Virus record (IMG/VR): IMGVR_UViG_3300024433_001174
Location: 1 to 32,927 of that record
DNA: 32,927 nucleotides
Source of the DNA: a virus
Strand: one strand, 5' to 3'
Part shown: piece by piece, positions 1 to 31,986 of the stretch
How the letters are laid out: each line of letters starts with the position of its first letter
Position numbering within the stretch: the stretch's first letter is position 1
Position numbers and translations under genes: made by a program
The notes under the pieces: generated by a model
Told to the model about the DNA's origin: nothing
Seen by the model: only the letters and a program-made list of their open reading frames with translations
Databases searched by the model: none

Positions 1-144
1 AAATATTTTGGAGTAGAAACCCAAGATGAGATCAGAGAGAAAACAGAAAGAGGCCGGCCGATTTGGACGCCGCAGTTTGAAAAGATAAACGAAATATTAA
101 GATTGAAAAAAACATTTGTTATGAAAGCATTAGGAGAAAATTAA
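1..144 (+). CDS. C-terminal fragment of unidentified protein
   Basis: This reading frame is open from the first base and stops with TAA at 142-144, giving 47 residues without a start, so it is the 3' end of a gene cut by the window edge. The other two frames close within the first ~30 bases, which supports this one as coding. The fragment is charged, with a TERGRPIWTPQFEKI stretch and a helical end; I do not recognise the family. Joined in frame to the truncated VRR-NUC gene at the right end it would give a ~113-aa protein, a normal VRR-NUC length, but the join does not rebuild the nuclease E-x-K motif. The next gene begins on the following base. Confidence 0.55.
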   Translation, partial: KYFGVETQDEIREKTERGRPIWTPQFEKINEILRLKKTFVMKALGEN

Positions 145-288
145 ATGAAAACTTGTAAGGATTGTCAATATTTTATTGAAACGAACTATGTGTTTATGTG
201 TCGTTGTTATCCTAAAATAAATCTTACCGTTCCTTATAGTTTGGCTTGCAAAGAATTTAAAGAAAAAGAGAAAAGGAGGCTAAATTAA
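145..288 (+). CDS. Small Cys-rich putative zinc-binding protein
   Basis: A 47-aa ORF that starts immediately after the preceding stop and ends immediately before the next ATG. It begins MKTCKDCQYF and has a C-x2-C pair near the N-terminus, a CRC pair about residues 19-21 and a later Cys near residue 35. The spacing and the ending 'ACKEF' resemble small Cys-rich proteins common in phages and bacteria that probably hold one metal ion. An AAAAGGAGG ribosome site for the following aminotransferase lies inside its last codons, so the two are likely co-translated. No specific role can be assigned. Confidence 0.65.
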   Translation: MKTCKDCQYFIETNYVFMCRCYPKINLTVPYSLACKEFKEKEKRRLN

Positions 289-1434
289 ATGACAATATCA
301 ATTGAGTTGTTCCGGCCTAATTCTGACGAGAGAGAAGCAGAAGCAGTAAAAGAGGTTATAGAAAGTAAATGGTGGGGGCTTGGCCCCAAAACTAAAGAAT
401 TTGAGGAAAATTTTGCTGCTTATATAGGAGTTAAACACGCAATAGCAGTTAATTCTTGTACCGCAGCTTTGCAATTAGCTGTTAATGCTTTGCCGAAATT
501 ACCTGTAATAGTGCCAGCAATTTCTTTTATTGCGACTGCATTTGCGCCTATATATGAGCGACGTTTGGTTTATTTTGCTGATGTTGAAGAAGATTATTTA
601 ACCATTGATACTCAATCGGTTGAACGTATAAAAGAAGAAAAGCAAATTAAGCAAGCCATTATTATCCCGGTACAGCTTTATGGTAATTTGGCTATGGGTG
701 ATATAAAAGATGATTTTATTATTGAAGATTGCGCTCATGCTTGTGGAACTTATATTGATGCTCACCCTAATAAATATTATGCCGGATCGTTTGGCATAAT
801 TAGTTGTTTTTCATTTCATGCTGTTAAAAACCTTGCTTGTGGCGATGGCGGAATGGTTTGCACTAATGATGATGAAATTGCAAAAAAGATAAGAAAACAG
901 CGATGGTTTGGAATTTCTAAAAGTACATTTGAACGAAATGATACGGCAGAAGATAAAACGGTTTATGGTTGGGAATATGAGGTTGATGATATTGGTTATA
1001 AGATGCACGCAAATGATATTTCATCTTCAATAGGATTGGTGCAACTAGATAAACTTGAAGCTGGAAACGAACGACGCCGAGAAATAACAGATATTTATAA
1101 TCGAGAATTGGCAAATGAAGATTGGATAAGAACCCCTAAGAAACAAGAAGGCGTTATATCAGCAAGTCATATTTATGCAATCCGTACTGAACACCGAGAT
1201 AAATTAAATTTATTTTTAAAAGAAAAGGGGGTCGCAACTGGTGTGCATTATCGGCCAATGTATCAATTTGAATATCATGATAAATATCCTTTCTTAAATC
1301 AACCTAATCCTGATTGTCCGGTAGCTGATCGAGAATGGAAGAAATTATTATCTTTGCCGTGTTATCCATCATTAACTGAAATTGAGCAGATGTATATCAT
1401 TGATCGAATAAAAGAATTTGGGAGGAAATTATAA
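289..1434 (+). CDS. DegT/DnrJ/EryC1-family sugar aminotransferase
   Basis: 381 aa, full length for PLP-dependent nucleotide-sugar aminotransferases (fold type I). Visible features are the N-terminal substrate segment, the NSCTAALQLAV phosphate-binding region, Asp147 in IIEDCAHACG (pairs with the pyridine nitrogen) and Lys180 in SFHAVKN, the expected Schiff-base lysine, followed by GDGGMV. Family members such as WecE, VioA, DesI and PglE transfer an amino group from glutamate to a 4-keto-6-deoxy nucleotide sugar. With RmlA/RmlB homologues in the same window the likely substrate is dTDP-4-keto-6-deoxyglucose, giving a dTDP-4-amino-4,6-dideoxyhexose; gluco or galacto stereochemistry cannot be read. 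AAAAGGAGG precedes the ATG. The downstream acetyltransferase overlaps the stop by one base, so the two steps are coupled. Confidence 0.9.
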   Translation: MTISIELFRPNSDEREAEAVKEVIESKWWGLGPKTKEFEENFAAYIGVKHAIAVNSCTAALQLAVNALPKLPVIVPAISFIATAFAPIYERRLVYFADVEEDYLTIDTQSVERIKEEKQIKQAIIIPVQLYGNLAMGDIKDDFIIEDCAHACGTYIDAHPNKYYAGSFGIISCFSFHAVKNLACGDGGMVCTNDDEIAKKIRKQRWFGISKSTFERNDTAEDKTVYGWEYEVDDIGYKMHANDISSSIGLVQLDKLEAGNERRREITDIYNRELANEDWIRTPKKQEGVISASHIYAIRTEHRDKLNLFLKEKGVATGVHYRPMYQFEYHDKYPFLNQPNPDCPVADREWKKLLSLPCYPSLTEIEQMYIIDRIKEFGRKL

Positions 1435-1883
1435 TGATTGAACTAAGAGAATTTAACAAACTGTTTCCAAGATATGTAAAAGGCATGTATGAAACGAGGA
1501 ACGATTGCCGACAATTCCTTAAGAATGATAAGGAAATAAGGGAACCAGATGTGGTTAATTTTTTCTTAACCAAGATTAAGCCCGGCAATGAAAAAATATA
1601 TATGATTTTCTATGAGGATGAGATTCTTGGATATGTTAATGCTATTCCACTTGATGAAAATAAATGTGAAGTAGGAATAAAAATTAAAACTACTCATCGG
1701 GGTAATGGTTTTGGGAAACAAGCATTGGCTTTGTTGATTGGCAAATTAGAAGGGAAAGAGTTGATTGCTGAAATTAAAACAACAAATGAAGCTAGTAAAA
1801 AATTGTTTGCTTCTCAGGGATTTAAACCATTAAAGATTAATGAGGAGGAAGGGATAGAAACATGGCAATTAAGCAAAAAATAA
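1434..1883 (+). CDS. GNAT-family N-acetyltransferase
   Basis: 149 aa. The acetyl-CoA pyrophosphate-binding motif A is visible as R89-GNGFG-K95, followed by a helix and the typical late NEASKKLFASQGFKPL stretch. GNAT enzymes move acetyl from acetyl-CoA to an amine. The start overlaps the aminotransferase stop (TAATG), so the probable substrate is the new 4-amino group, as WecD (a GNAT) does for dTDP-4-amino-4,6-dideoxygalactose in enterobacterial common antigen. It could instead be a ribosomal-protein-type acetyltransferase, but the position argues for the sugar. The next gene begins 22 bases before this one ends. Confidence 0.85.
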   Translation: MIELREFNKLFPRYVKGMYETRNDCRQFLKNDKEIREPDVVNFFLTKIKPGNEKIYMIFYEDEILGYVNAIPLDENKCEVGIKIKTTHRGNGFGKQALALLIGKLEGKELIAEIKTTNEASKKLFASQGFKPLKINEEEGIETWQLSKK

Positions 1884-2785
1884 TGTTTGCTGGAGCTTCC
1901 GGTTATGGCAATTTAGGTGACGATTTTTATAAGTATATCTTTGATAAATATTTAAGTGATGAGTTTGAGCTTATTTTCGACAGCCCATATCCGGATATTC
2001 GGTATATGGATCAAGTGGATTATTTAGTTATCGGTGGTGGAGGTTTAATTTATGATAATGATACTGACCATTTTTATTATATGCAGAAGTATTTGGATAT
2101 GGCTATCGAAAAAGGGATACCATTCTTTTTTATCTCATGCGGTATACAAATTAGGACGCCAACGTTTAGAGAGGATTTGGCGAACCAAGATTATAAAAAA
2201 TTAGCTGCTTCGCTTGTTAATTGGAAACCTTATCTTGAAAAGGCAGAACTAATAACAATTCGATCGGCGGTTGATGGTAAAGTCTTGGAAGAGTTATCAG
2301 ACAATATAAACCCGATTGTTTTACCTGATTTAGGATATTTAATTGAGCCATCAAATTATCAGATTGCTGATAATATCGAAACGGTAATCATTCCTAATAA
2401 ACAATTATACGGATTTGAAGAGTATTTAGCAGAGATTCAACAATATATCAATGAGAAAACTTATTTATTAGCCCTGTCTAGTGAAGATAATTATATCATT
2501 ATGCAGCTTTGTACCAGATTGCAAATTCATAGCATGTTAAATGATCGTCGAATTGTAACCCCATTTGAGGCTGCACGAATGATTAAGGATTGTAAGCAAA
2601 TTATAACAAGTCGATATCATGGTTTGGTTTTTGCTAGGGCAATGGGGAAGGGGGAAGATGAAATAACTAAGTTAATGAATAATTACAAAGGGTTGTCGGA
2701 AACTAAACCTCTTTGCTCATTAGTAGCAGATGACAATATAAATTATTTAAAAAATAAAATTAAGGAGATTAAAAATGGGAAATAA
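1862..2785 (+). CDS. Polysaccharide pyruvyl transferase family protein
   Basis: 307 aa with hallmarks of the PS_pyruv_trans family (CsaB/WcaK/AmsJ type, GT-B-like fold): GYGNLGDD at residues 14-21, an IGGGG glycine loop at 58-61, an ISCGIQ strand, and the C-terminal SRYHGLVFA motif at 250-258 containing the conserved His. Such enzymes put a ketal-linked pyruvate from phosphoenolpyruvate onto a sugar, adding negative charge to surface polysaccharides. GAGGAGGAAGGGA upstream supports the ATG. It is embedded in the aminosugar cassette and overlaps the GNAT gene. An alternative within the superfamily is a transferase that does not use PEP; family assignment is firm, substrate is not. Confidence 0.88.
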   Translation: MAIKQKIMFAGASGYGNLGDDFYKYIFDKYLSDEFELIFDSPYPDIRYMDQVDYLVIGGGGLIYDNDTDHFYYMQKYLDMAIEKGIPFFFISCGIQIRTPTFREDLANQDYKKLAASLVNWKPYLEKAELITIRSAVDGKVLEELSDNINPIVLPDLGYLIEPSNYQIADNIETVIIPNKQLYGFEEYLAEIQQYINEKTYLLALSSEDNYIIMQLCTRLQIHSMLNDRRIVTPFEAARMIKDCKQIITSRYHGLVFARAMGKGEDEITKLMNNYKGLSETKPLCSLVADDNINYLKNKIKEIKNGK

Positions 2786-2978
2786 ATGTTTTGGTTGCGA
2801 GAATATTAAAGATAATAGTTTTCCTTTTGAATTTATGCGAGATATAGAATCAACGGAATATTATCTTGATACAGAAGGTTGCGGAGATGGTTTAAACGAA
2901 GATGCTTCAATGTTAAGAATATTTTATTGTCCTGTTTGTGGAAAAAATTTAAAGGAGCTTAATAATGAGAAATCTTGA
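2775..2978 (+). CDS. Small zinc-ribbon-like protein
   Basis: 67 aa with CFGC near the N-terminus and a CPVCGKNL knuckle near the C-terminus, plus a single Cys at about residue 36. Two C-x2-C pairs indicate a structural zinc site. The middle is acidic. It overlaps the pyruvyl transferase by 11 bases and the methyltransferase by 14, so it is an integral operon member. Function is unknown; a small metal-binding adaptor or regulator is a guess. Confidence 0.65.
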   Translation: MGNKCFGCENIKDNSFPFEFMRDIESTEYYLDTEGCGDGLNEDASMLRIFYCPVCGKNLKELNNEKS

Positions 2979-3438
2979 CGAACTAAAAAAACTTAATATT
3001 GGGTGTGGTGCTGATTGTCCGGCTGATTTTCTTAATCTTGATATTAGAGAAGGCACGGGGGTTGATATTATAGCGGATTGTCGCAAGCTACCGTTTTCTG
3101 ATGGAAGGTTTGACCATATAGAGTCGCACGATTGCCTTGAGCATATTTCACACCGTGAAACTTATGCGACTTTAATTGAATGGTTACGAGTTTTAAAAAA
3201 GGGTGGGACGATCCGAATAATCGTTCCGAATTTATTAGTAGCTTTTGATAGTATCCGTAAACGTGATTATGCAACTGGTTTAAATATTCTTTATGGCGCA
3301 CAAGATTATCCTGAAAATAAACATCTTATGGGTTTTACTCCTGAGAATATTAGAAACATTTTGACTGAATTAAAGGTTAATGTGCAAGTAGTTAAGCCTC
3401 AAAGTTTACACATTATTGTAGAAGGAGTTAAAAAATGA
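2965..3438 (+). CDS. Class I SAM-dependent methyltransferase
   Basis: 157 aa. Motif I is LNIGCGA (10-16), followed by an acidic residue at the end of strand 2 (LDI, D26), a DCRKLPFSDGRFDHIES segment and a LEHIS helix typical of Methyltransf_11-type enzymes, then LKKGGTIRIIVPN. It is shorter than many relatives (~200-250 aa) and lacks an obvious extra substrate domain. In this setting it may O- or N-methylate a sugar, but a small-molecule, lipid or nucleic acid target cannot be excluded. An AAAGGAGC ribosome site precedes the ATG, and the stop overlaps the next start by four bases (ATGA). Confidence 0.82.
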   Translation: MRNLDELKKLNIGCGADCPADFLNLDIREGTGVDIIADCRKLPFSDGRFDHIESHDCLEHISHRETYATLIEWLRVLKKGGTIRIIVPNLLVAFDSIRKRDYATGLNILYGAQDYPENKHLMGFTPENIRNILTELKVNVQVVKPQSLHIIVEGVKK

Positions 3439-4313
3439 GTATTGATATAGGAATAGCGGTAATCAATAGGTTAGAGTTTTTAAAAAAGATTATTAAAAGC
3501 CTTGAGGAAACTTTATCAGAGAAACGAAACACGATCATTCTTGATAATGGATCAAAGGTGGATGATATAAAAGGCTATGCTGAGTCAATAGGTGCTAATT
3601 TTATCAGGAATGAATCAAACGAGGGGATTTATAAAGGATACAATCAAATTTATAAATCTAGTAAAGCTGATTTTGTTGCGTTTCTTCATAACGATATTTG
3701 TATTTTTGAGAAAGATTGGGATAAGCGGGTTTTAGCAACAATCAATGATATTGAGAAAAAATTCAAAAGGAAAGTGGGGATTATTGGGTTTGCAGGTAGC
3801 CGGGGAGCTGGGCGAGAGGGCGCACGTGTTGGCTTTATGAGTAATTTAAAAGAATGGGAAGGTTCACATTCGGCCGAAGTGCATGGACGACGAATAACTG
3901 ATTATAAACCGGCCACGTTTCTTGATGGCTCTGTATTAATTTGTCGGCGTGAATTGTTAGATAAAATTGGTGGATTTGATGAGGGTTATAAATGCCATCA
4001 TATTTACGATTATGATATTTCCCTATCCTCATTACGGGCAAGATATGTTAATGCTGTAGTTGGTATTGAATTTGCTCATCGAGGCGGCATTACTGCGATA
4101 AGTGATTGGGCTATTTTATCTTTTAGTGAATGGTGCGAGAAAGACGAAACATTAAAAAAGTATTTTGCAGACAATATGCAATATAATCCCAAACTTACCC
4201 AAGAACAGGCAATTATAGATTTTAATACACAAAGATTTTTTAAGAAGTGGGCGGGATTTATACCTTGTTTTATGAATGATAATTTTCACCTAATAAAAGG
4301 GAGGAGTCATTAA
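3435..4313 (+). CDS. GT2-like (GT-A fold) glycosyltransferase
   Basis: 292 aa. The N-terminus shows the GT-A nucleotide-sugar fold: an early strand, LDNGS at 36-40, and FLHNDICIF with N86-D87 in the place of the metal-binding D-x-D. A GGFDEGY motif near residue 180 and a following YDYDISLSSLRARY stretch match the acceptor region of GT2 rhamnosyl/galactosyl-type enzymes. No membrane segment is seen, so it is probably soluble. It starts inside the methyltransferase stop. The enzyme would transfer a sugar from an NDP donor, plausibly the one made by this phage. Donor and acceptor are inferred from context only. Confidence 0.82.
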   Translation: MSIDIGIAVINRLEFLKKIIKSLEETLSEKRNTIILDNGSKVDDIKGYAESIGANFIRNESNEGIYKGYNQIYKSSKADFVAFLHNDICIFEKDWDKRVLATINDIEKKFKRKVGIIGFAGSRGAGREGARVGFMSNLKEWEGSHSAEVHGRRITDYKPATFLDGSVLICRRELLDKIGGFDEGYKCHHIYDYDISLSSLRARYVNAVVGIEFAHRGGITAISDWAILSFSEWCEKDETLKKYFADNMQYNPKLTQEQAIIDFNTQRFFKKWAGFIPCFMNDNFHLIKGRSH

Positions 4314-4314
4314 A

Positions 4315-4521
4315 ATGAAGAGTCAAAGCAGATTGGTTGCGGCATTGTTAGCGATTTTTTTGGGGGGAGTTGGTATTCATAAATTTTACATGGGTTCGAT
4401 TATTTGGGGGATAATTTATCTTTTTTTTTGTTGGACTTTTATCCCGGCTATAATTGGATTCATAGAGGGGATTTATTATTTAAGCATTAGCGATATTACG
4501 TTTATGGAACATTATTTATAA
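4315..4521 (+). CDS. TM2-domain membrane protein
   Basis: 68 aa, essentially one TM2 domain: a basic start (MKSQSR), a hydrophobic helix with FLGGVGIHKFYMG, a short loop, and a second helix ending IPAIIGFIEGIYYL. This is the classic TM2 signature (G-x-H-x-F-Y-x-G). The protein should sit in the inner membrane as a two-helix hairpin. It lies one base after the GT2 gene and shortly before the GT4 gene, so a link to membrane glycan handling or host-surface change is plausible but unproven. GGGAGGAG upstream supports the start. Confidence 0.85.
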   Translation: MKSQSRLVAALLAIFLGGVGIHKFYMGSIIWGIIYLFFCWTFIPAIIGFIEGIYYLSISDITFMEHYL

Positions 4522-4540
4522 AAAGAGAGGAGAATTAATA

Positions 4541-6091
4541 ATGAGCGAAAAAATAATAAAGTCCGAAGATATGCTCAAGCAAGTAGTAATGCCAGAAGTA
4601 AAAAAAGCTAAAGAGAAACGAGGACGGCCTAAGAAAAAGAAAAAAGTAAAAGATAATATTATTCCTAAAAATCAAGGTATAGCTGGTGATGAGGACTATG
4701 CGCTTGGCAAAAAATTATTTACTCCTCAAGCAAACATAGAGGAGCTTGGAGAAAACCCTATCTTAACCAGATTAACCGAAGACAAAAATAAGCCAATAAA
4801 AAAGAAAATAAAACTGCTTTGGTATGGTGATAGCCCGACTGCTAATACGGGATTTGGCGTAGTATCTAGGAATATTTTAAAACATCTTCAAGCTACTGGC
4901 GAATTTGAAATCACAGTATTAGGCGTACAGTATTTTGAGGAGCCATTAATTGATTTATTTGTTGGTTATGAAATGCCTTATAAATTAATTGCAGCCGGGA
5001 ATAACCGAGAAAACGACATGTTTGGCCGCAAAAAACTTATTAATTTAATTATAAACGAGCATTTTGATTTAGTTATAACCTTCTCAGACCTTCAAAATCT
5101 TATTACACAAAAGCACGGTTGCACAAATTCAATCAGAAATGCGATCGATAAGGCTAAACTTAAATTCCAAAAGGATGTTAAATGGATGATTTATACTCCG
5201 ATTGATGGTCAATTGTTTCCTTGGGAGCTTGACCCGGTAAGGGAAGCAGATTTTACTTTCTTTTATACCCAATATGGCTATTTCCAATCGCTCAAAATAT
5301 TAACTGATGAAATATTAAACCAATGCCCGAATAAGAAAATACAAAAATTATTGCTTAGAGAAATGACTGAGCGGATTGGGTTTGCTTATCATGGTATTGA
5401 TACAAATAATTTTTATCCGATTGATCGTAAAGAGTTGCTTGAATTTCGCAATGAATATTTTGGGATAGACCCGGATACTTTTTTAATCATTAACGTTAAT
5501 CGTAATCAGCCTCGTAAAATGTTAGCGCATACAATAGAGGCTTACGCTAAGTTTAAAAAGGAGTGTCCAGACTCAATGCTTTATTTGCATTGCCGAGATG
5601 TGGATATTGGCGGTGATTTACACAAGATGGTTAAAGCATATGGCAACCCTTTAGGCATTAAGATTGCAGATAATATAAATATTATAAAAGGTTGTCCGGT
5701 TGAAACACTTAATAAAATATATAATTGTGCTGACCTTTTTGTAACAACCACAATGGGTGAGGGGTGGGGATTAACGATCACGGAAGCAATGGCAACCAAA
5801 ACATTAACGACTATTCCGCCTCATTCAAGCCTTAAAGAGATAGGCGCAGAAAACCGCTCTATTTTTGTTAACTGCAATAATACTCTATGTTTGCATGAGG
5901 ATTTTTACCGGATAAGACCATTGGTTGATACCAATGATTTAGCATCAAAAATGAAAATGATTTATGACAAAGTAGATCAGAAAGCATTTATTGAAATCAG
6001 AGAAAAAGCCTATAAATGGGTTACTCAAATAACATGGGAGGCAATATCAAAAGAATGGTTCGCAAGAATAATGCAATTATTAGGTAGGTAA
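4541..6091 (+). CDS. GT4-type glycosyltransferase with basic N-terminal extension
   Basis: 516 aa. Residues 1-85 are a charged, probably disordered extension holding RGRPKKKKK at 27-35, which matches an AT-hook core (GRP flanked by basic residues). A GT-B domain follows, starting LLWYGDSPTANTGFG and ending with E407-GWGLTIT-E415, the E-x7-E nucleotide-sugar motif of GT4 enzymes. The middle Rossmann-like half contains NVNRNQPRKML, also typical of GT4. Such proteins transfer hexoses with retention. The basic extension could bind DNA or another polyanion, or simply be a linker. AAAGAGAGGAG precedes the ATG. It ends 4 bases before the next gene. Confidence 0.85.
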   Translation: MSEKIIKSEDMLKQVVMPEVKKAKEKRGRPKKKKKVKDNIIPKNQGIAGDEDYALGKKLFTPQANIEELGENPILTRLTEDKNKPIKKKIKLLWYGDSPTANTGFGVVSRNILKHLQATGEFEITVLGVQYFEEPLIDLFVGYEMPYKLIAAGNNRENDMFGRKKLINLIINEHFDLVITFSDLQNLITQKHGCTNSIRNAIDKAKLKFQKDVKWMIYTPIDGQLFPWELDPVREADFTFFYTQYGYFQSLKILTDEILNQCPNKKIQKLLLREMTERIGFAYHGIDTNNFYPIDRKELLEFRNEYFGIDPDTFLIINVNRNQPRKMLAHTIEAYAKFKKECPDSMLYLHCRDVDIGGDLHKMVKAYGNPLGIKIADNINIIKGCPVETLNKIYNCADLFVTTTMGEGWGLTITEAMATKTLTTIPPHSSLKEIGAENRSIFVNCNNTLCLHEDFYRIRPLVDTNDLASKMKMIYDKVDQKAFIEIREKAYKWVTQITWEAISKEWFARIMQLLGR

Positions 6092-23521: not shown

Positions 23522-23740
23522 TTATTTTATATAGCCTATCAATTCATCTACAGAAAGTTTGAAGTGATAGGCTAATTTGACGATTGTTTGGATATAAGGC
23601 TTTGATCTCCGGCCTTCTTCGAGAGATTGATAGGTATATATGGACATATTAAGCTCCCAAGCCATCTCTTGTTGGGTATAACCCTTATCCCGCCTCAATA
23701 ACTTTAATTTAAGCCCTAGATATAAAGGATTATATTGCAT
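23522..23740 (-). CDS. XRE-family (Cro/CI-type) HTH repressor
   Basis: 72 aa, a single helix-turn-helix: LKLLRRDKGYTQQEMAWELNMSIYTYQSLEEGRR with recognition helix around SIYTYQSLE, followed by a helix typical of small Cro-like proteins (VKLAYHFKLSVDELIGYI). It would dimerise on palindromic operators; candidates centred on GTAC lie just upstream at 23758-23856. The start overlaps the end of the upstream 45-aa ORF, so translation is probably coupled. A second repressor beside the CI/LexA-type gene suggests a two-regulator switch or immunity function. Confidence 0.85.
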   Translation of the reverse strand: MQYNPLYLGLKLKLLRRDKGYTQQEMAWELNMSIYTYQSLEEGRRSKPYIQTIVKLAYHFKLSVDELIGYIK

Positions 23741-25606: not shown

Positions 25607-26281
25607 TTACTCAACCATGTTTAATTGAGCTACTACTTGTCCGATAATTGTTACACCGGAACCACAAGGAATATCCTTGAACTTACGATTATCGGATTTT
25701 AGTATGTAACCTTTTTTGGTTTTAACCAGTCTTTTGAGTACGGCATCTTCATCATGGTTTATTCTAGCCACAATTACCTTGCCGACTAAATCTTTATAGT
25801 CTTCATGGACACGGACGTAAATTAATTCGCCGTTTTTTAATGTGGGTTCCATAGATGACCCATCTACGACGAGTGCAAAGGCTTTGCCTTTTTTGAGTTT
25901 GTACATTTTTGCCACCTCGTCTGGTATTGGTATCCAGTCGAGTATCTCGTCATAGATTCCTTTTTCTACCCCAGCGGAGCATGATCCCAATAGGGGAATA
26001 TGTAGTGATTTGCTGGTAAGTGTGGCGGGGCGGATATTAGCAGGGAGCGTATCTAATAAAAGATTTAATTTTTTTTGTACTTTAATTCCAATTAAATCTT
26101 TTAAAGAAAGTTTAGAGATATGAGCAAATTTTGTTAAAAGTTTTTCCCCAGCTTGTCTTTTTCCCTGTTCAATCATTGCGACAGTATTATCTCTGACTTT
26201 TAATTTAGCTGCTAACTCAGTCTGAGTAAGCCCATTTTCTTTTCTATATTTTTTAAATATTTCAGCAATATTGTTTTTCAT
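25607..26281 (-). CDS. CI/LexA-type self-cleaving phage repressor
   Basis: 224 aa. Residues ~6-64 are an XRE helix-turn-helix (GLTQTELAAKLKVRDNTVAMIEQGKRQ). The C-terminal half is an S24 peptidase domain with the Ala103-Gly104 cleavage site in GSCSAGVEKG, nucleophile Ser142 in DGSSMEP and Lys182 in DEDAVLKRL. RecA-DNA filaments from DNA damage would trigger self-cleavage and induction. It lies on the - strand behind a promoter that overlaps the rightward early promoter, the usual lysogeny switch. Gene order and the Ser/Lys dyad make the call firm. Confidence 0.93.
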   Translation of the reverse strand: MKNNIAEIFKKYRKENGLTQTELAAKLKVRDNTVAMIEQGKRQAGEKLLTKFAHISKLSLKDLIGIKVQKKLNLLLDTLPANIRPATLTSKSLHIPLLGSCSAGVEKGIYDEILDWIPIPDEVAKMYKLKKGKAFALVVDGSSMEPTLKNGELIYVRVHEDYKDLVGKVIVARINHDEDAVLKRLVKTKKGYILKSDNRKFKDIPCGSGVTIIGQVVAQLNMVE

Positions 26282-26309: not shown

Positions 26310-26338
26310 TTGACGCCTATACCAATTATATGTATACT
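26310..26338 (+). promoter_or_regulatory. Rightward early promoter (PR-like)
   Basis: TTGACG (26310-26315) and TATACT (26333-26338) are spaced by 17 bases, with TG just before the -10. This is the best sigma-70 promoter in the window. It would direct rightward transcription into the early genes across an unusually long (~640-base) leader that also runs antisense to the small - strand gene at 26461-26616. Confidence 0.7.
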
Positions 26339-26460: not shown

Positions 26461-26616
26461 TTAAATAAAGAAGTGAAAAACTTTACCCTTAGTGGGAAAG
26501 ATTTTCTTACCATTACGTATTATGTAACGGCAAAATATTTCAATTCCCTTTTTAGGGCTTGAATCCTTTTTAGCTCTTTTATTAGAACTAGAAGAATTCT
26601 GCTTACTGTCGGCCAT
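26461..26616 (-). CDS. Small basic hypothetical protein
   Basis: 51 aa, starting at the ATG at 26616, which has a strong AAAGGAGGT on the - strand; a longer frame reaching 26745 lacks such a site. The N-terminus is Ser/Lys-rich and probably disordered (MADSKQNSSSSNKRAKKDSS) and the C-terminus has a FCRYIIRNGKKIFP strand pair seen in a widespread small-protein family of unknown role. It is transcribed opposite to the PR-like transcript crossing it. Confidence 0.6.
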   Translation of the reverse strand: MADSKQNSSSSNKRAKKDSSPKKGIEIFCRYIIRNGKKIFPTKGKVFHFFI

Positions 26617-26724: not shown

Positions 26725-26786
26725 ATGGCCGGCGTTTACCCACAACCCACCAGATTTTTATTCATTTTTCAAAGATCAAATTCGGA

Positions 26787-26865
26787 GAGTCCGGTATGAA
26801 AATCAATAATTCAACTAAACTTAATCACCTCGGGGAAGATTCCTATACCGGACTCCACCCGAGGT
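26787..26865 (+). promoter_or_regulatory. Early leader with two overlapping hairpins, candidate attenuator
   Basis: GAGTCCGGTAT (26787-26797) pairs perfectly with ATACCGGACTC (26845-26855). ACCTCGGG (26827-26834) pairs perfectly with CCCGAGGT (26858-26865), which is followed by TTTATTTTA, a rho-independent terminator shape. Each pairing puts one arm of the other in its loop, so they either exclude each other or make a pseudoknot. The first stem also covers the ATG of the leader ORF at 26796. This fits control of rightward early transcription by termination and antitermination. Confidence 0.5.
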
Positions 26866-26987
26866 TTTATTTTACTAGAGGGGGTGTGGTTATACAAGGT
26901 GCTATTTCAATATTTTTTTGCCCTCAGTATCACCATAGATCACCACACCATAACCATATATCACCAGAAGGGAGGTTTTTCGCATGA
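26796..26987 (+). CDS. Possible 63-aa leader ORF
   Basis: An open frame from ATG 26796, with GGAG eight bases upstream, to TGA 26985-26987, which overlaps the next ATG (ATGA). It covers both hairpins, the terminator-like stem and the ATCACCA repeats, and its product (rich in His and Pro near the end) looks like no normal protein. The ATG lies inside a stem. It may be a translated leader coupling ribosome movement to termination and to the downstream regulator, or it may be non-coding sequence that happens to be open. Confidence 0.3.
   Translation: MKINNSTKLNHLGEDSYTGLHPRFYFTRGGVVIQGAISIFFCPQYHHRSPHHNHISPEGRFFA
26929..26970 (+). repeat. Four ATCACCA-type repeats at one-turn spacing
   Basis: ATCACCATAG (26929-26938), ATCACCACACC (26939-26949), ATAACCATAT (26950-26959) and ATCACCAGAAG (26960-26970) follow each other at 10-11-bp spacing, so one helix face carries all copies. 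They lie just before the GGGAGG ribosome site of the CII-like gene. GGTGTGGT at 26883-26890 is complementary to ACCACACC at 26942-26949. They could be a multimeric operator or an RNA structure; too short for CRISPR. Confidence 0.45.
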
Positions 26988-27352
26988 CAGAGGAAAATAT
27001 TCAGCTAAATCTAGTATTTGAGAAACCCGCCCATGAAACCATTAAAGAGGCAATTATAGCAGCGGTATCTAATAGTGGAATGTCGCAAAGAGCGGTAGCT
27101 GCCGAATTAGACTACAGCCCTCAAGAGTTTCATCGTATTTTAAGCTCAGAAGAGTATCGATACTTCCCGGTAGAGAAACTACCCAAATTATTGGAGATTA
27201 CCGGAGATTATACCCCGCTATATTGGCTAGTTAATAAATTCCTAATGCCCTTACAGGACGCACGAGAGCAACAATTCCAAGAGTTTCTAAAGGCTATGCC
27301 AAAGATCGAGAAGTTATTAAAGACCATTAAAAAAGGAAAGGGGGTGGGCTAA
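26984..27352 (+). CDS. CII/CP76-like phage regulatory protein
   Basis: 122 aa. The helix-turn-helix GMSQRAVAAELDYSPQEFHRILSS is at residues ~32-55, followed by FPVEKLPKLLEITGDYTPLYWLVNKF, which matches the CII/CP76 family pattern closely ('PLYWL-x-x-x-F'). These proteins act early, often deciding lysogeny by activating repressor or integrase promoters. The C-terminus is helical and basic (PKIEKLLKTIKKGKG). Strong GGGAGG upstream. It is the first clear gene of the rightward early operon and overlaps the next ATG. Confidence 0.75.
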   Translation: MTEENIQLNLVFEKPAHETIKEAIIAAVSNSGMSQRAVAAELDYSPQEFHRILSSEEYRYFPVEKLPKLLEITGDYTPLYWLVNKFLMPLQDAREQQFQEFLKAMPKIEKLLKTIKKGKGVG

Positions 27353-27631: not shown

Positions 27632-27904
27632 ATGAGAAATAAAAATTATGACCATATTCATTTTTGCGGAAAGTGTGGAGCAGAAGTAGAAAATCTTTAT
27701 GACAGTGCGTATGTGGCTGTAGTTTTCATGCCGGCCATGTTTAAAGATGTTGATAAAAAAAGCTATACGATTTGTGAGAAATGTTGGAAAGAAAGTATAG
27801 GTAAATTGAAATATGCAATGGAAGATGAGCCACAAACTGCAATCGTAAATGAAAATCAACTCAAGCTATTTAAAAAACGAGAGGGGGTGAAATGCAATGT
27901 CTAA
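27632..27904 (+). CDS. Zinc-binding hypothetical protein
   Basis: 90 aa with C-G-K-C at residues 12-15 and C-E-K-C at about 48-51, giving a four-Cys zinc site around a short beta/helix core (YVAVVFMPAMFKDVDKKSYTI). The C-terminus carries a KLFKKREGVKCNV tail. GGGGAG precedes the ATG. It overlaps the following gene by 8 bases. Possibly a nucleic-acid or protein adaptor in the replication block; no family recognised. Confidence 0.6.
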   Translation: MRNKNYDHIHFCGKCGAEVENLYDSAYVAVVFMPAMFKDVDKKSYTICEKCWKESIGKLKYAMEDEPQTAIVNENQLKLFKKREGVKCNV

Positions 27905-28235
27905 AGTCTTATCCAAAGAAGAAATGCTCGAATTAGGAGATAAATCATCACAATATTTGAAACTTATCGATAATGAGCCTCAAGAGCTTACCTATATGGG
28001 ATGCCTAGGGCAATTTGACGGTATGTATAACGGCAATCCTCAATTGAATAAAGATGGTTCTCCTAGAAAAGTATTTAGGTATAAGTTTTTAAGCTCTTAC
28101 GGTACTGAGAAAATTTACGATAACGGGAAATTAAATCTATTCGATGAGTTTTCAAAGCTAGAACCTAATACAAAGATTAAGTTAACTAAATGGAAAGATG
28201 CAGGAAAGAATAAGTTTAAGGTGGAAATAATATAA
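27897..28235 (+). CDS. OB-fold-like protein, candidate ssDNA-binding protein
   Basis: 112 aa. After a helix (KEEMLELGDKSSQYL) the rest reads as five strands: ELTYMGCLGQFDGMY, KVFRYKFLSSYGTEKIYDN, and TKIKLTKWKDAGKNKFKVEII, with the glycine and aromatic spacing of a small OB fold. The same shape occurs in small phage SSB-like proteins from replication modules. GGGGGTG precedes the ATG. This is a fold guess from pattern; no direct DNA-binding motif can be named. Confidence 0.5.
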   Translation: MSKVLSKEEMLELGDKSSQYLKLIDNEPQELTYMGCLGQFDGMYNGNPQLNKDGSPRKVFRYKFLSSYGTEKIYDNGKLNLFDEFSKLEPNTKIKLTKWKDAGKNKFKVEII

Positions 28236-28242
28236 ATACATA

Positions 28243-28293
28243 GGGGCTGGTAGCAAGATTTTTTAATCACTTTCTTTAATCCCTACCAGCCCC
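28243..28293 (+). other. Intergenic hairpin B in early operon
   Basis: GGGGCTGGTAG (28243-28253) and CTACCAGCCCC (28283-28293) pair perfectly over 11 bp around a 29-base T-rich loop. It lies in the 68-base gap before the 108-aa gene and ends just before its AAAAAGG ribosome site. No U tract follows on either strand. Suggests RNA processing, protein binding or anti-termination rather than termination. Confidence 0.6.
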
Positions 28294-28309
28294 GAGAAAA
28301 AGGTTGCCG

Positions 28310-28636
28310 GTGGAATACAGACTAGATTATTTAAAATTATGGGGAAAGTTTTATAACCAAAACCCTAACATGTTATGGGTAACAAAATGGAAAACTAGAC
28401 TTTGTGCATTTATAAAACAGTATTTCGATTTTGTACTTAATACCGATGAGGGAGGGCTTAATGGTTGGGTAGGAGTATTTAATAAACTCCCCGATTTTGA
28501 AACTCTTCGCAGATCAGATCAAGAATACCGCAAGAAAAATAGTCAATTATTCCCCGAAAGCTCAAAACGAACATGGCGTAATCAAGCGACTTTATGGAAA
28601 AAGCCAGATGACAGAAAGGCGAGGTTTGAAGGATGA
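28310..28636 (+). CDS. Hypothetical protein of the replication block
   Basis: 108 aa from the GTG at 28310, which has AAAAAGG six bases upstream; a TTG at 28304 is too close to that site. Aromatic and basic, with YLKLWGKFYNQNPNMLWVTKWKTRL and a Trp near the end (RTWRNQATLWKKP). No known motif. It overlaps the HNH gene (ATGA). Confidence 0.6.
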   Translation: MEYRLDYLKLWGKFYNQNPNMLWVTKWKTRLCAFIKQYFDFVLNTDEGGLNGWVGVFNKLPDFETLRRSDQEYRKKNSQLFPESSKRTWRNQATLWKKPDDRKARFEG

Positions 28637-28914
28637 AATATAAGAAAAAAAATATTCCATATAAATTGAGATTAGCTGTTGCTCAAAGAGATAAAGGTAT
28701 TTGCCAGCATTGTGGAATACAGGGTAATTTTGAAAGTGGATTTGTTTATCATCCAACAAACACTTATATGATTAATTGGTCAAAAGATAATAAAGAATCT
28801 TTTGAAGTCGATCATATAATGCCGGAATATCTTGGCGGGAAAACTACTTTAAATAACCTTCAATTATTATGCAAATCATGTAATGCAGCAAAGGGGGCAA
28901 AATATGCGGGGTAG
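28633..28914 (+). CDS. HNH endonuclease
   Basis: 93 aa. A first zinc pair C24-Q-H-C27 is followed by FEVDHIMPEYLGGKTTLNNLQLLCKSCNAAKG, containing the DH of the catalytic core, the Asn of HNH and the second C-x2-C. A complete compact HNH. Phage HNH enzymes often help terminase at packaging; this one instead sits in the early replication block, so it may nick DNA for replication or recombination. Overlaps the genes on both sides. Confidence 0.88.
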   Translation: MKYKKKNIPYKLRLAVAQRDKGICQHCGIQGNFESGFVYHPTNTYMINWSKDNKESFEVDHIMPEYLGGKTTLNNLQLLCKSCNAAKGAKYAG

Positions 28915-29644
28915 GAGAATGTTGCATAAAAACATATGTTTAAGCGAAAAGATGAATTTGATTTCGTGGTTCGAACAGGTGTTATGGATTCGGATTTTGG
29001 TCAATTCCGATGACTATGGATTGTGTTTTAGTGCCTCCGGCACCATAGATGAATTGTGTTTCCCGACAAAAAACGTGGGGATGAATAACATTTCTAGGGG
29101 GGTAAGGCACCTTGTGAAGGTCGGACTTTTAGAATCATTGACCGATAAACATGGTAGGGTGATTTTAAGAATTGCTGGTTTTGAAAAGTACCAAAATTTG
29201 CGTAATGACTATAAAAAACGTACATATTTTGAAGATACAGGCTTTGATTTCTGTAACGAAACCCGTACGGATGGCGTAACGAAACCCGAACGAAACTCTC
29301 CCTCTGAAGTAGAAGTAGAAGTTAAAGTAGAAGTAGAAGGGGAAGCTGAACGGATCGGAACACCCCCTGTGGATAACTTTAAAAAAGAGGGACTCGAACC
29401 AACAAAAAATTCTTATTTAATCACTCTTTATAAATCCCAAAATAGGAATTTGCTAACTGCCTATCCTAACCACCTTAAAAAGTTTGTACATGCTTTAGAG
29501 GTGGCGGTTGGGGATGGGTGGTCGAGGCCGGAGGTGGAGAAAAGGCTTTATGAAATTGCGGGTAAGGATATACCACCTTGGGAAATCTTTAAAAGAAAGG
29601 AAGGGGATATAAATTGGAACAAGTTGCTTTCGGAATCGAATTAG
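28904..29644 (+). CDS. Phage replication initiator (DnaD/'SKFPE-like' type)
   Basis: 246 aa from ATG 28904, with AAAGGGGG upstream; an upstream in-frame ATG (28883) lacks that spacing. The N-terminal ~100 residues follow the replication-protein pattern: RRMLHKNICLSEKMNLISWFEQVLWIRILVNSDDYG, then a winged-helix-like NNISRGVRHLVKVGLL and IAGFEKYQNLR. A glutamate/valine repeat (EVEVEVKVEVEGEAE) links it to a C-terminal helical part ending WNKLLSESN. It would bind the origin and recruit the helicase loader encoded next. Assignment by domain order and position. Confidence 0.72.
   Translation: MRGRRMLHKNICLSEKMNLISWFEQVLWIRILVNSDDYGLCFSASGTIDELCFPTKNVGMNNISRGVRHLVKVGLLESLTDKHGRVILRIAGFEKYQNLRNDYKKRTYFEDTGFDFCNETRTDGVTKPERNSPSEVEVEVKVEVEGEAERIGTPPVDNFKKEGLEPTKNSYLITLYKSQNRNLLTAYPNHLKKFVHALEVAVGDGWSRPEVEKRLYEIAGKDIPPWEIFKRKEGDINWNKLLSESN
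29306..29349 (+). repeat. GAAGTA microsatellite inside the replication gene
   Basis: Six-base GAAGTA units repeat with small changes between 29306 and 29349, encoding the EVEVEVKVEVEGEAE linker. Lambda-type phages put origin repeats inside the initiator gene, so this could also be a DNA element, but the imperfect units and coding sense fit a flexible acidic linker equally well. Confidence 0.45.
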
Positions 29645-30165
29645 AACGGTTAGGACAGAATTTTGGGGTGCGAGGAAAGATTTTAGAAGATAAGGCTAAA
29701 TTGCTTTGGGATGAATTTAAAGGTGTACCTTATGACGTTTGGAAATTAACTTGTAAAAATTTACTGGAGAATGAGGATCGATTTCCTACTATCAAAAAAT
29801 TCAAAGAAGCATTGAGGGGCGCTTCAATGAATTTGAAATATAGACAAAAACCCACTAGAGAAATAACTATTTGTGAAAAATGTGAAGGGAGTGGATATTT
29901 AAGCACTGTAAAAGTTAATAACGATAGGGTGTTGGGTGAATATCTTTTTAGATGTGATTGTGAAAATGGTGCTTATCGAGAACGGGAATTACTTGTATGG
30001 CATGACAAGTTTAAAAATATGGGGCATGTCTTAAGGGTTGAATATTTTGAATTTGATGCAGAAGGATTTTTAAAAGAGCTAGAAGAAACTAAAAAAGAGC
30101 TTATTGATCCGAAAGGGATTGTTGAAAAGGTTATTAAAATTTTTGATGGAAAGGTTGTGGAATGA
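29614..30165 (+). CDS. Putative helicase-loader-like protein with CxxC zinc motif
   Basis: 183 aa, TTG start with GGAAGGGG upstream, overlapping the initiator by 31 bases. The N-terminal ~65 residues are helical (RGKILEDKAKLLWDEFKGVPYDVWKLTCKNLLENEDRFP), like the G39P/loader N-domain that meets the replicative helicase. A zinc region CEKCEGSGYL...CDCENG (about residues 87-111) resembles a DnaJ-type knuckle. No Walker ATPase motif is present, so it would be a non-ATPase loader. No helicase gene is seen, so the host helicase is probably recruited. Confidence 0.55.
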   Translation: MEQVAFGIELERLGQNFGVRGKILEDKAKLLWDEFKGVPYDVWKLTCKNLLENEDRFPTIKKFKEALRGASMNLKYRQKPTREITICEKCEGSGYLSTVKVNNDRVLGEYLFRCDCENGAYRERELLVWHDKFKNMGHVLRVEYFEFDAEGFLKELEETKKELIDPKGIVEKVIKIFDGKVVE

Positions 30166-30335
30166 TGAGTTTAGAATTTTTAGCGCAGTTATGGCGGATT
30201 AGTAGAGATCATGAGGATGAAACAAAAATCACTTTTTTATGTGATCCAAGGCAATTGCAAAAAGTTTTAAGTATTCCGGCTCAAACTTTATTAAGAATAA
30301 AAGTTGTGATTGAAGAGGAAGGAGTCGAATCATGA
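30162..30335 (+). CDS. Small hypothetical protein before rmlA
   Basis: 57 aa, coupled to the upstream stop and to the rmlA start (TCATGAAGG). It begins MMSLEFLAQLWRISRDHEDE and reads as a compact alpha/beta protein with one Cys. No family known. It shows that the rml genes follow the replication genes in one operon without a terminator. Confidence 0.55.
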   Translation: MMSLEFLAQLWRISRDHEDETKITFLCDPRQLQKVLSIPAQTLLRIKVVIEEEGVES

Positions 30336-31048
30336 AGGGTGTAATTTTAGCAGGTGGTACAGGCTCAAGACTTTTTCCTTTAACTAAGGTTACGAATAAA
30401 CATTTATTGCCGGTTGGGAATAAACCAATGATTTTTTATCCGTTAGAAAAATTAGTTGAAGCCGGGATTGAAGATATTTTAATTATTACTGGTACTGAAC
30501 ATATTGGCGATTTTATGGAGCTTTTAGGCAGCGGTAGGGTTTATGGAGCTAATCTAACTTACAAAGTACAAGATGAATCCGGCGGGATAGCACAGGCGTT
30601 AGCTTTAGCCGAGGCTTTTGCTAATGGTGAAAAGATTGTTGTAATTCTTGGTGATAACGTTTTTGATGATGATTTATTTGAAATTGTTGAATTATTTGAA
30701 AGGCAAGCCAGTGGTGCATTAGTTTTGGTTAAAGAAGTTGAAGACCCAAAACGATTTGGCGTAGTTGAATTTGATGACAAATTGAAACTTCTTGGCATAG
30801 AAGAAAAGCCAGAAAACCCTAAAAGCAATTTTATTATTACGGGTATTTATTTTTATGACCAACGAGTATTTGAAATTATAAAAACTTTAGAACCTTCTGA
30901 AAGAGGAGAACTTGAAATTTCTGATGTTAATAAAGTTTATTTAGAAAAAGGATTATTACAGTGTGCGCCTTTAATGAATTATTGGACTGACGCAGGGACA
31001 TTTAAATCATTGCATAAGGCTAATCAATTAGTGCGAGGTGAGAAATGA
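30332..31048 (+). CDS. rmlA: Glucose-1-phosphate thymidylyltransferase (short form)
   Basis: 238 aa. Clear nucleotidyltransferase motifs: GGTGSRLFPLT at 8-18 (nucleotide binding), LPVGNKPMI at 30-38, GGIAQALA (base contact), GDNVF (metal-binding Asp), EEKPENPKSN, GELEISDVN and WTDAGTF. It makes dTDP-glucose from dTTP and glucose-1-phosphate, the first step of dTDP-sugar synthesis. Long RmlA is ~290 aa; this one ends soon after WTDAGTF and lacks the ~50-residue C-terminal part linked to the allosteric site, as in other short forms. UTP use cannot be excluded. Stop overlaps the rmlB start. Confidence 0.9.
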   Translation: MKGVILAGGTGSRLFPLTKVTNKHLLPVGNKPMIFYPLEKLVEAGIEDILIITGTEHIGDFMELLGSGRVYGANLTYKVQDESGGIAQALALAEAFANGEKIVVILGDNVFDDDLFEIVELFERQASGALVLVKEVEDPKRFGVVEFDDKLKLLGIEEKPENPKSNFIITGIYFYDQRVFEIIKTLEPSERGELEISDVNKVYLEKGLLQCAPLMNYWTDAGTFKSLHKANQLVRGEK

Positions 31049-31986
31049 AATTATTAGTAACGGGTGGACTAGGTTTTATCGGGAGTAATTTTATTAAGCA
31101 TATGATAACCAGTTATCCCGATATTGAAATTATAAATTTTGATTATAGAACTTATGCAGCAAATGATATTGAATTTCCATCAAATAAAGTGGCGAATTTT
31201 ACTGTTGATATTAGCGATTGGACATTTCTTGATCTAATGGCGGATAGCCTTAAATTTAAAAATGGAGATATAGATTGCGTTATAAATTTTGCGGCTGAAA
31301 CCCATGTTGATAATTCAATCCAAAATGCTGATAAATTTATCAAGTCAAATATTTATGGGGTTTATAACTTACTTAAACTTGTTAGGAATTTTAACATTAA
31401 AAAGTTTATTCAAATTTCCACCGATGAAGTTTATGGCAGCGTAAAAACTAAAGTTTGCAAAGAAACTGCTAATTTTAAACCAAGCTCCCCATATAGCGCA
31501 TCAAAAGCTAGCGCTGAAATGCTTTGTATGGCTTATCGAAAGACTTATGATTTGCCGATAATTATTACCCGGGCATGTAATAACTATGGGCAGTTTCAGC
31601 ATGAGGAAAAATTTATACCAACGGTAATAAGAAATGCTTTGCAAGATAAAAAGATACCTCTTTATGGCAACGGTGAAAATATTAGGGAATGGCTTCATGT
31701 AATTGATAATTGCCGGGCTATTGAGAAAGTTTTATTGAAAGGGAAAATTGGAGAAATTTATAATGTTGGTTCCGGTGAACGGCATCAAAATATCCAAATG
31801 ATTGAAGATATATTACAACTTATGGGTAAAAGCTATGACCTAGTTGAAACGGTAACAGATAGAGCCGGGCATGATCTTAGATATGCGATTGACTCAACGA
31901 AAATTAAACGTTTAGGCTGGTATCCAAAAATCCAACTGGAAGAAGGATTAAAAGAAACCATTGAATATTATAAAGGAAAAATATAA
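31045..31986 (+). CDS. rmlB: dTDP-glucose 4,6-dehydratase
   Basis: 313 aa, short-chain dehydrogenase. GGLGFIGSNF binds NAD+, FAAETHVDNSI and STDEVYGS carry active-site residues (the TDE triad characteristic of 4,6-dehydratases), YSASKA is the Y-x3-K pair, and RACNNYGQFQHEEKFIPTVI, GNGENIREWLHV and TDRAGHDLRYAID are typical RmlB segments. It turns dTDP-glucose into dTDP-4-keto-6-deoxyglucose, the substrate expected for the aminotransferase at 289-1434. Slightly shorter than cellular RmlB (~350 aa). Overlaps rmlA by 4 bases. Confidence 0.93.
   Translation: MKLLVTGGLGFIGSNFIKHMITSYPDIEIINFDYRTYAANDIEFPSNKVANFTVDISDWTFLDLMADSLKFKNGDIDCVINFAAETHVDNSIQNADKFIKSNIYGVYNLLKLVRNFNIKKFIQISTDEVYGSVKTKVCKETANFKPSSPYSASKASAEMLCMAYRKTYDLPIIITRACNNYGQFQHEEKFIPTVIRNALQDKKIPLYGNGENIREWLHVIDNCRAIEKVLLKGKIGEIYNVGSGERHQNIQMIEDILQLMGKSYDLVETVTDRAGHDLRYAIDSTKIKRLGWYPKIQLEEGLKETIEYYKGKI

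Follow-up and report, generated by a model that had tools for sequence, protein, structure and literature searches.

The control region and its genes

The virus record IMGVR_UViG_3300024433_001174 was analysed over its full 32,927 bases (G+C 35.5%), hereafter the window, which carries terminase, portal and capsid genes. Two stems, named S1 and S2 here, sit between a leftward CI-like repressor gene and a rightward CII-like gene, in a stretch that we call the leader. The following features frame it:

25607-26281, minus strand: CI-like repressor gene, with an HTH and an S24 peptidase domain
26310-26338, plus strand: best rightward promoter candidate (pR-like), TTGACG-17-TATACT, 10 of 12 matches in the promoter scan, beside the CI-like repressor gene
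26318-26336, no strand assigned: palindrome TATACCAATTATATGTATA, overlapping the pR-like promoter and presumably an operator
26984-27352, plus strand: gene for a CII-like HTH regulator of 122 aa (PHROG 101, E 9.6e-7; Pfam PF06892, 25.9 bits)

Both the PHROG 101 and the PF06892 profiles of CII-like regulators recover the 122-aa protein, the PF06892 score lying 0.1 below the Pfam cut-off of 26, and its comparison with solved structures gave no match. Its gene probably steers the choice between killing and hiding. The pR-like promoter has to be read against the finding that promoter-like sites in the window are, in total, no more frequent than in shuffles. As for TATACCAATTATATGTATA, no other site in the window matches the half-site pattern with 0 mismatches, and that pattern was drawn from TATACCAATTATATGTATA itself. 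The nearest good rightward promoter lies about 440 nt upstream of the leader; the promoter scan found no leader-proximal one.

Between the pR-like promoter and the leader there is no plus-strand ORF of at least 50 aa. On the opposite strand, a 51-aa ORF (26461-26616, minus strand; lysine- and serine-rich, beginning MADSKQNSSSSNKRAKKDSSPKKG) with a strong Shine-Dalgarno sequence (-12.9 kcal/mol) occupies the place expected for cro or apl, and its protein has no match in PHROGs or phages. Further upstream, a 72-aa ORF (23522-23740, minus strand) is, by reading alone, a candidate second small HTH-type gene, and a 10-bp perfect stem (23532-23574) lies near its end. Sugar or glycan genes form a large set found at both ends of the record (289-6091 and 30332-31986), coding for an aminotransferase, a pyruvyl transferase, glycosyltransferases, a nucleotidyltransferase and an epimerase; the two parts may be a single cluster divided where the record was cut.

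Searches for a homologous leader found none. They compared the control-region DNA with phages and plasmids and the CII-like protein with phages, viral contigs and genomes, looked for the stem patterns and a CII motif pattern in viral contigs, and also used the terminase, portal, capsid, repressor and replication proteins. The only near-identical relative, IMGVR_UViG_3300009529_001323, has terminase and portal genes 99-100% identical to those of the window and ends at window position 26040, about 750 bases short of the leader. Hence the S1/S2 switch proposed below draws no support from covariation or conservation. At its other end, the start of this relative differs from window positions 65-300 near 145-285, where a short stretch of the window is missing.

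Interlocked stems in the leader

An earlier note on this DNA had reported an 11-bp perfect stem and an 8-bp GC-rich terminator-like stem in the leader, and our analysis confirmed both at their positions. S1 has 11 bp with zero mismatches, and S2 has 8 bp, of which six are G-C pairs. The structural features of the leader are:

26753-26804, plus strand: S0, a weak long hairpin found by folding (about -8.5 kcal/mol), pairing the region of the S1 5' arm before S1 is possible
26787-26797, plus strand: S1 5' arm GAGTCCGGTAT, including the A and T of the leader-ORF ATG
26827-26834, plus strand: S2 5' arm ACCTCGGG, terminator stem
26845-26855, plus strand: S1 3' arm ATACCGGACTC, within the S2 loop
26858-26865, plus strand: S2 3' arm CCCGAGGT, terminator stem
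26865-26874, plus strand: U-tract TTTTATTTTA, directly 3' of S2, its first 9 bases holding 8 T
26883-26949, plus strand: S3, a third stem (GGTGTGGT at 26883-26890 with ACCACACC at 26942-26949), -17.2 kcal/mol, with no T after it
26932-26965, no strand assigned: two direct repeats ACCATA(G/T)ATCACC, 21 bp start to start, a candidate CII-binding site

The arms thus alternate along the RNA (S1 5', S2 5', S1 3', S2 3') and have no nucleotide in common. An outer extension of S1 takes in the S2 3' arm, and inner pairs of S2 take in the S1 3' arm. The claim that the stems overlap and block each other, or else form a pseudoknot, therefore stands as to the interlock, while mutual exclusion holds solely for non-pseudoknotted folds, the arms sharing no base.

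When all perfect stems of 7 bp or more with a span of at most 100 nt were ranked by stacking energy over the whole window, S1 came second (-22.6) and S2 fourth (-18.8) among 274. As a pair they are the strongest interlocked stems of the window (-41.4 vs -24.9 for the next), and when the whole window was dinucleotide-shuffled 240 times in 1-kb blocks, no shuffle reached -41 (best interlocked pair per shuffle: mean -28.5, best -38.3). The stretch also folds at z = -2.85, and none of its own 200 shuffles folds as well. Taken together, the rarity of the pair and the fold z-score make chance a poor explanation. An Rfam covariance-model search returned nothing above threshold, and below it two miRNA hits (E 0.45 and 1.6).

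S2 has the make-up of an intrinsic terminator, namely a GC-rich stem of 8 bp followed by the T-rich tract TTTATTTTAC. A scan that allowed loops of up to 30 nt, and that required a stem stacking energy no weaker than -12 with 7 or more T among the next 9 bases, yielded three distinct sites for the whole window. S2 was the strongest of them (-18.8), and shuffles gave 0.1 sites per window whose stem reached -18. The S2 loop is 23 nt long with inner pairing, and a general scan missed S2 because it limited loops to 8 nt or fewer. On the opposite strand no T-tract follows the S2 stem, which sets its polarity as rightward, towards cII. S2 may terminate transcription in its U-tract. The strongest perfect stem of the window lies elsewhere, between two early genes at 28243-28293 (GGGGCTGGTAG/CTACCAGCCCC, 29-nt loop, stacking -26.3); with no T-tract after its stem it is not terminator-like, and the loop motif TTAATCAC that it has in common with the leader is not above chance.

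Predicted folding of the leader transcript

Folding of 26745-26875 predicted two nearly isoenergetic states, the S1 state at -29.5 kcal/mol and the S2 state, which comes with S0, at -28.4 kcal/mol. The leader is thus predicted to have two competing folds, one a terminator and one an antiterminator, whose stabilities are close, as in attenuators. The two states were also near balance at 25 degrees. When the chain was folded as it grows, the predicted order was S0, then S1, then S2: the S1 3' arm is made about 10 nt ahead of the S2 3' arm, and S1 reached a probability of 0.99 once 26855 had emerged, with S2 possible only from about 26864. Refolding directly from S1 into S2 would meet a barrier estimated at about 27 kcal/mol, which is an upper limit with pseudoknots ignored, so that the stem formed first would decide the outcome.

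By this model the default would be S1 with read-through, and S2 would require that S1 be prevented. Simulated occupancy of 26776-26812 or of 26790-26826 led to S2, and that of 26805-26840 led to S1. The bias towards S1 held for nine of ten assumed 5' ends, S2 being favoured when the RNA started at 26783.

Alternative readings of the stems

The above data can be read in several ways. S2 could be an ordinary intrinsic terminator in front of cII, with S1 tuning its efficiency or being incidental and nothing being sensed. Such a reading draws on S2 and its U-tract being the best terminator-like site of the window and on the absence of a visible ligand or sensor, and a terminator ahead of cII is a known layout in lambda. 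It accounts poorly for an 11-bp perfect stem with exactly such an interlock, which is rare, and a constitutive terminator whose formation is kept back by a stem predicted to form first would be poorly designed. We therefore consider a plain terminator rather unlikely.

Alternatively, S1 and S2 could coexist in an H-type pseudoknot and serve as a protein-binding site, for example for translation control of the leader ORF or cII, or for recruitment of an antitermination factor. Two interlocked stems with non-overlapping arms, which might form simultaneously, are the arrangement that this needs. A rough energy of about -31 kcal/mol (stems of -22.2 and -18.5, plus an assumed penalty of 9.6) at least equals that of either hairpin state. 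Nevertheless, with 29, 10 and 2 nt the loops are unlike the classical compact form, in whose geometry a 2-nt loop should be unable to cross the 11-bp S1, and Rfam holds no match. A structured binding site of this sort seems quite improbable.

Finally, that the inverted repeats act in DNA, as protein-binding half-sites in an overlapping pR/pE control region, is very unlikely: CCTATACC is common to the S1 3' side and the pR operator-like site and the 21-bp-spaced direct repeats lie in the same region, but the S1 arm has no other copy within 1 mismatch in the window, and arms 58 bp apart, an interlocked second stem and a well-placed U-tract suit RNA better.

The leader open reading frame

Translation is one way in which the fold could be set, and the leader contains a candidate ORF:

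26796-26987, plus strand: leader ORF of 63 aa, whose stop TGA (26985-26987) overlaps the cII start at 26984 as ATGA

The 63 codons span both stems up to the cII start. The earlier note had correctly placed the end of this ORF on the ATG of the CII-like gene and its own ATG (26796-26798) within S1, at the top of which the codon lies. The GGAG found 8 nt upstream of this ATG lies with it in the region of the S1 5' arm. The anti-Shine-Dalgarno energy of the start, -6.6 kcal/mol, is fair and of a size seen in real genes here, and 5.7% of other ATGs reach this value or better. A ribosome may start at this ATG.

As a translated element the ORF is doubtful, the fair Shine-Dalgarno sequence being set against non-coding-like codon use and the lack of a family match: its codon score of -0.14 per codon is within the spread of non-coding ORFs (mean -0.23, sd 0.14), every short gene scored alongside ranks higher, and Pfam and PHROG searches gave no match. 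It is unlikely that the ORF encodes a conserved peptide or is a conserved protein gene.

Proposed attenuation mechanism

Our preferred reading is that S1 and S2 make up a conditional intrinsic terminator, that is, an attenuator, in front of the cII-like gene. We give it a probability of about 0.5, a figure that jointly covers the DNA being that of a temperate phage with the stems in its rightward early leader. The reading is based on an S1/S2 pair unmatched in 240 shuffles, on S2 as the strongest terminator-like site, on the near-equal energies and on S1 forming first, and it is supported by the context of a CI-like repressor, an operator-like promoter and a CII-like gene. Counting against it are the failure to find a related leader, the codon use of the leader ORF, the distance to the promoter, the dependence on the 5' end and the possible S1+S2 pseudoknot. 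Judged from the nucleotides, the RNA fold itself may decide whether the cII-like gene is transcribed.

In this scheme S1 would be the antiterminator, and S2 with the U-tract the terminator. If formed first, S1 would enclose the S2 5' arm while its outer pairs took the S2 3' arm, and RNA polymerase would read through into cII. If the S1 5' arm were occupied as it emerged, S1 would fail, S2 would form and transcription would stop. The simplest occupant would be a ribosome at the GGAG and ATG in that arm; an antisense RNA from a leftward pE-type promoter would be an alternative. We infer that a transcript crosses the leader, that S2 terminates it, and what would occupy the arm.

Comparison with known systems

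Rival hairpins of similar energy and a terminator with a U-tract are found in trp-type and similar attenuators. In them, too, the antiterminator's 5' arm holds a start site and is paired beforehand by a weak hairpin, here S0. The leader differs from them in that the rival stems interlock rather than share an arm, in probably lacking a short leader peptide with control codons, and in having no known ligand.

Lambda tR1, between cro and cII, is Rho-dependent and is overcome by N at nut. The leader resembles it in having a terminator-like site directly before a cII-type gene in a rightward operon. Unlike tR1, S2 would be of the intrinsic type, no plus-strand ORF of 50 aa or more separates the pR-like promoter from the leader, and a search for nut elements at the level of boxA gave one loose boxA-like match (TGCTATTTCAAT at 26900) and identified no boxA/boxB pair.

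The layout found here, with a leftward CI-like gene, an operator-like promoter and direct repeats spaced 21 bp ahead of cII, also recalls phage 186. The CI gene of 186 is leftward too; its CII occupies two half-sites separated by two helical turns, at -38 and -58 of pE (PMC6593788), and pE, which CII activates, lies just ahead of cII, convergent with pR (186 annotation; PMC6593788). The direct repeats of the present leader overlap the 3' part of S3 and extend just beyond it, upstream of cII, and a comparable pair was present in 2 of 2000 shuffles of the region. By analogy they may belong to a leftward pE-like promoter, the RNA from which would be antisense to the leader. Several differences stand beside these likenesses: 186 has apl between pR and cII, its annotated tR1 comes after dhr, beyond cII, and its repeats are called inverted (PMC6593788), whereas those found here are direct.

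The earlier note had suggested a cis-acting attenuator or a put-like antitermination RNA. The first is supported structurally, by a terminator-like hairpin with a U-tract and its nearly isoenergetic rival, predicted to form first; the second is not supported. HK022 put RNA is about 70 nt long and consists of two successive stem-loops (PMC9378689). A cis-acting RNA in the early leader would be common to both systems, but put has no interlock, and the stems here are interlocked rather than successive. The best match between the leader and HK022 27658-30029 was 10 nt (E 0.43), which is not above chance, neither putL nor putR having been pinpointed within that region.

Biological implications

Most likely, S1 and S2 form a terminator/antiterminator leader of a known type ahead of a cII-type gene. 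A more specific proposal, that an interlocked, pseudoknot-capable leader reads ribosome availability or pE antisense RNA and so sets cII transcription through the choice between terminator and antiterminator, appears distinctly improbable. If the leader does act in this way as an attenuator, an RNA switch, besides protein stability, would set the amount of CII in a temperate phage, and the lysis-lysogeny decision would gain a sensing step. The leader would then also provide a compact model of a terminator under the control of an interlocked, not arm-sharing, antiterminator.
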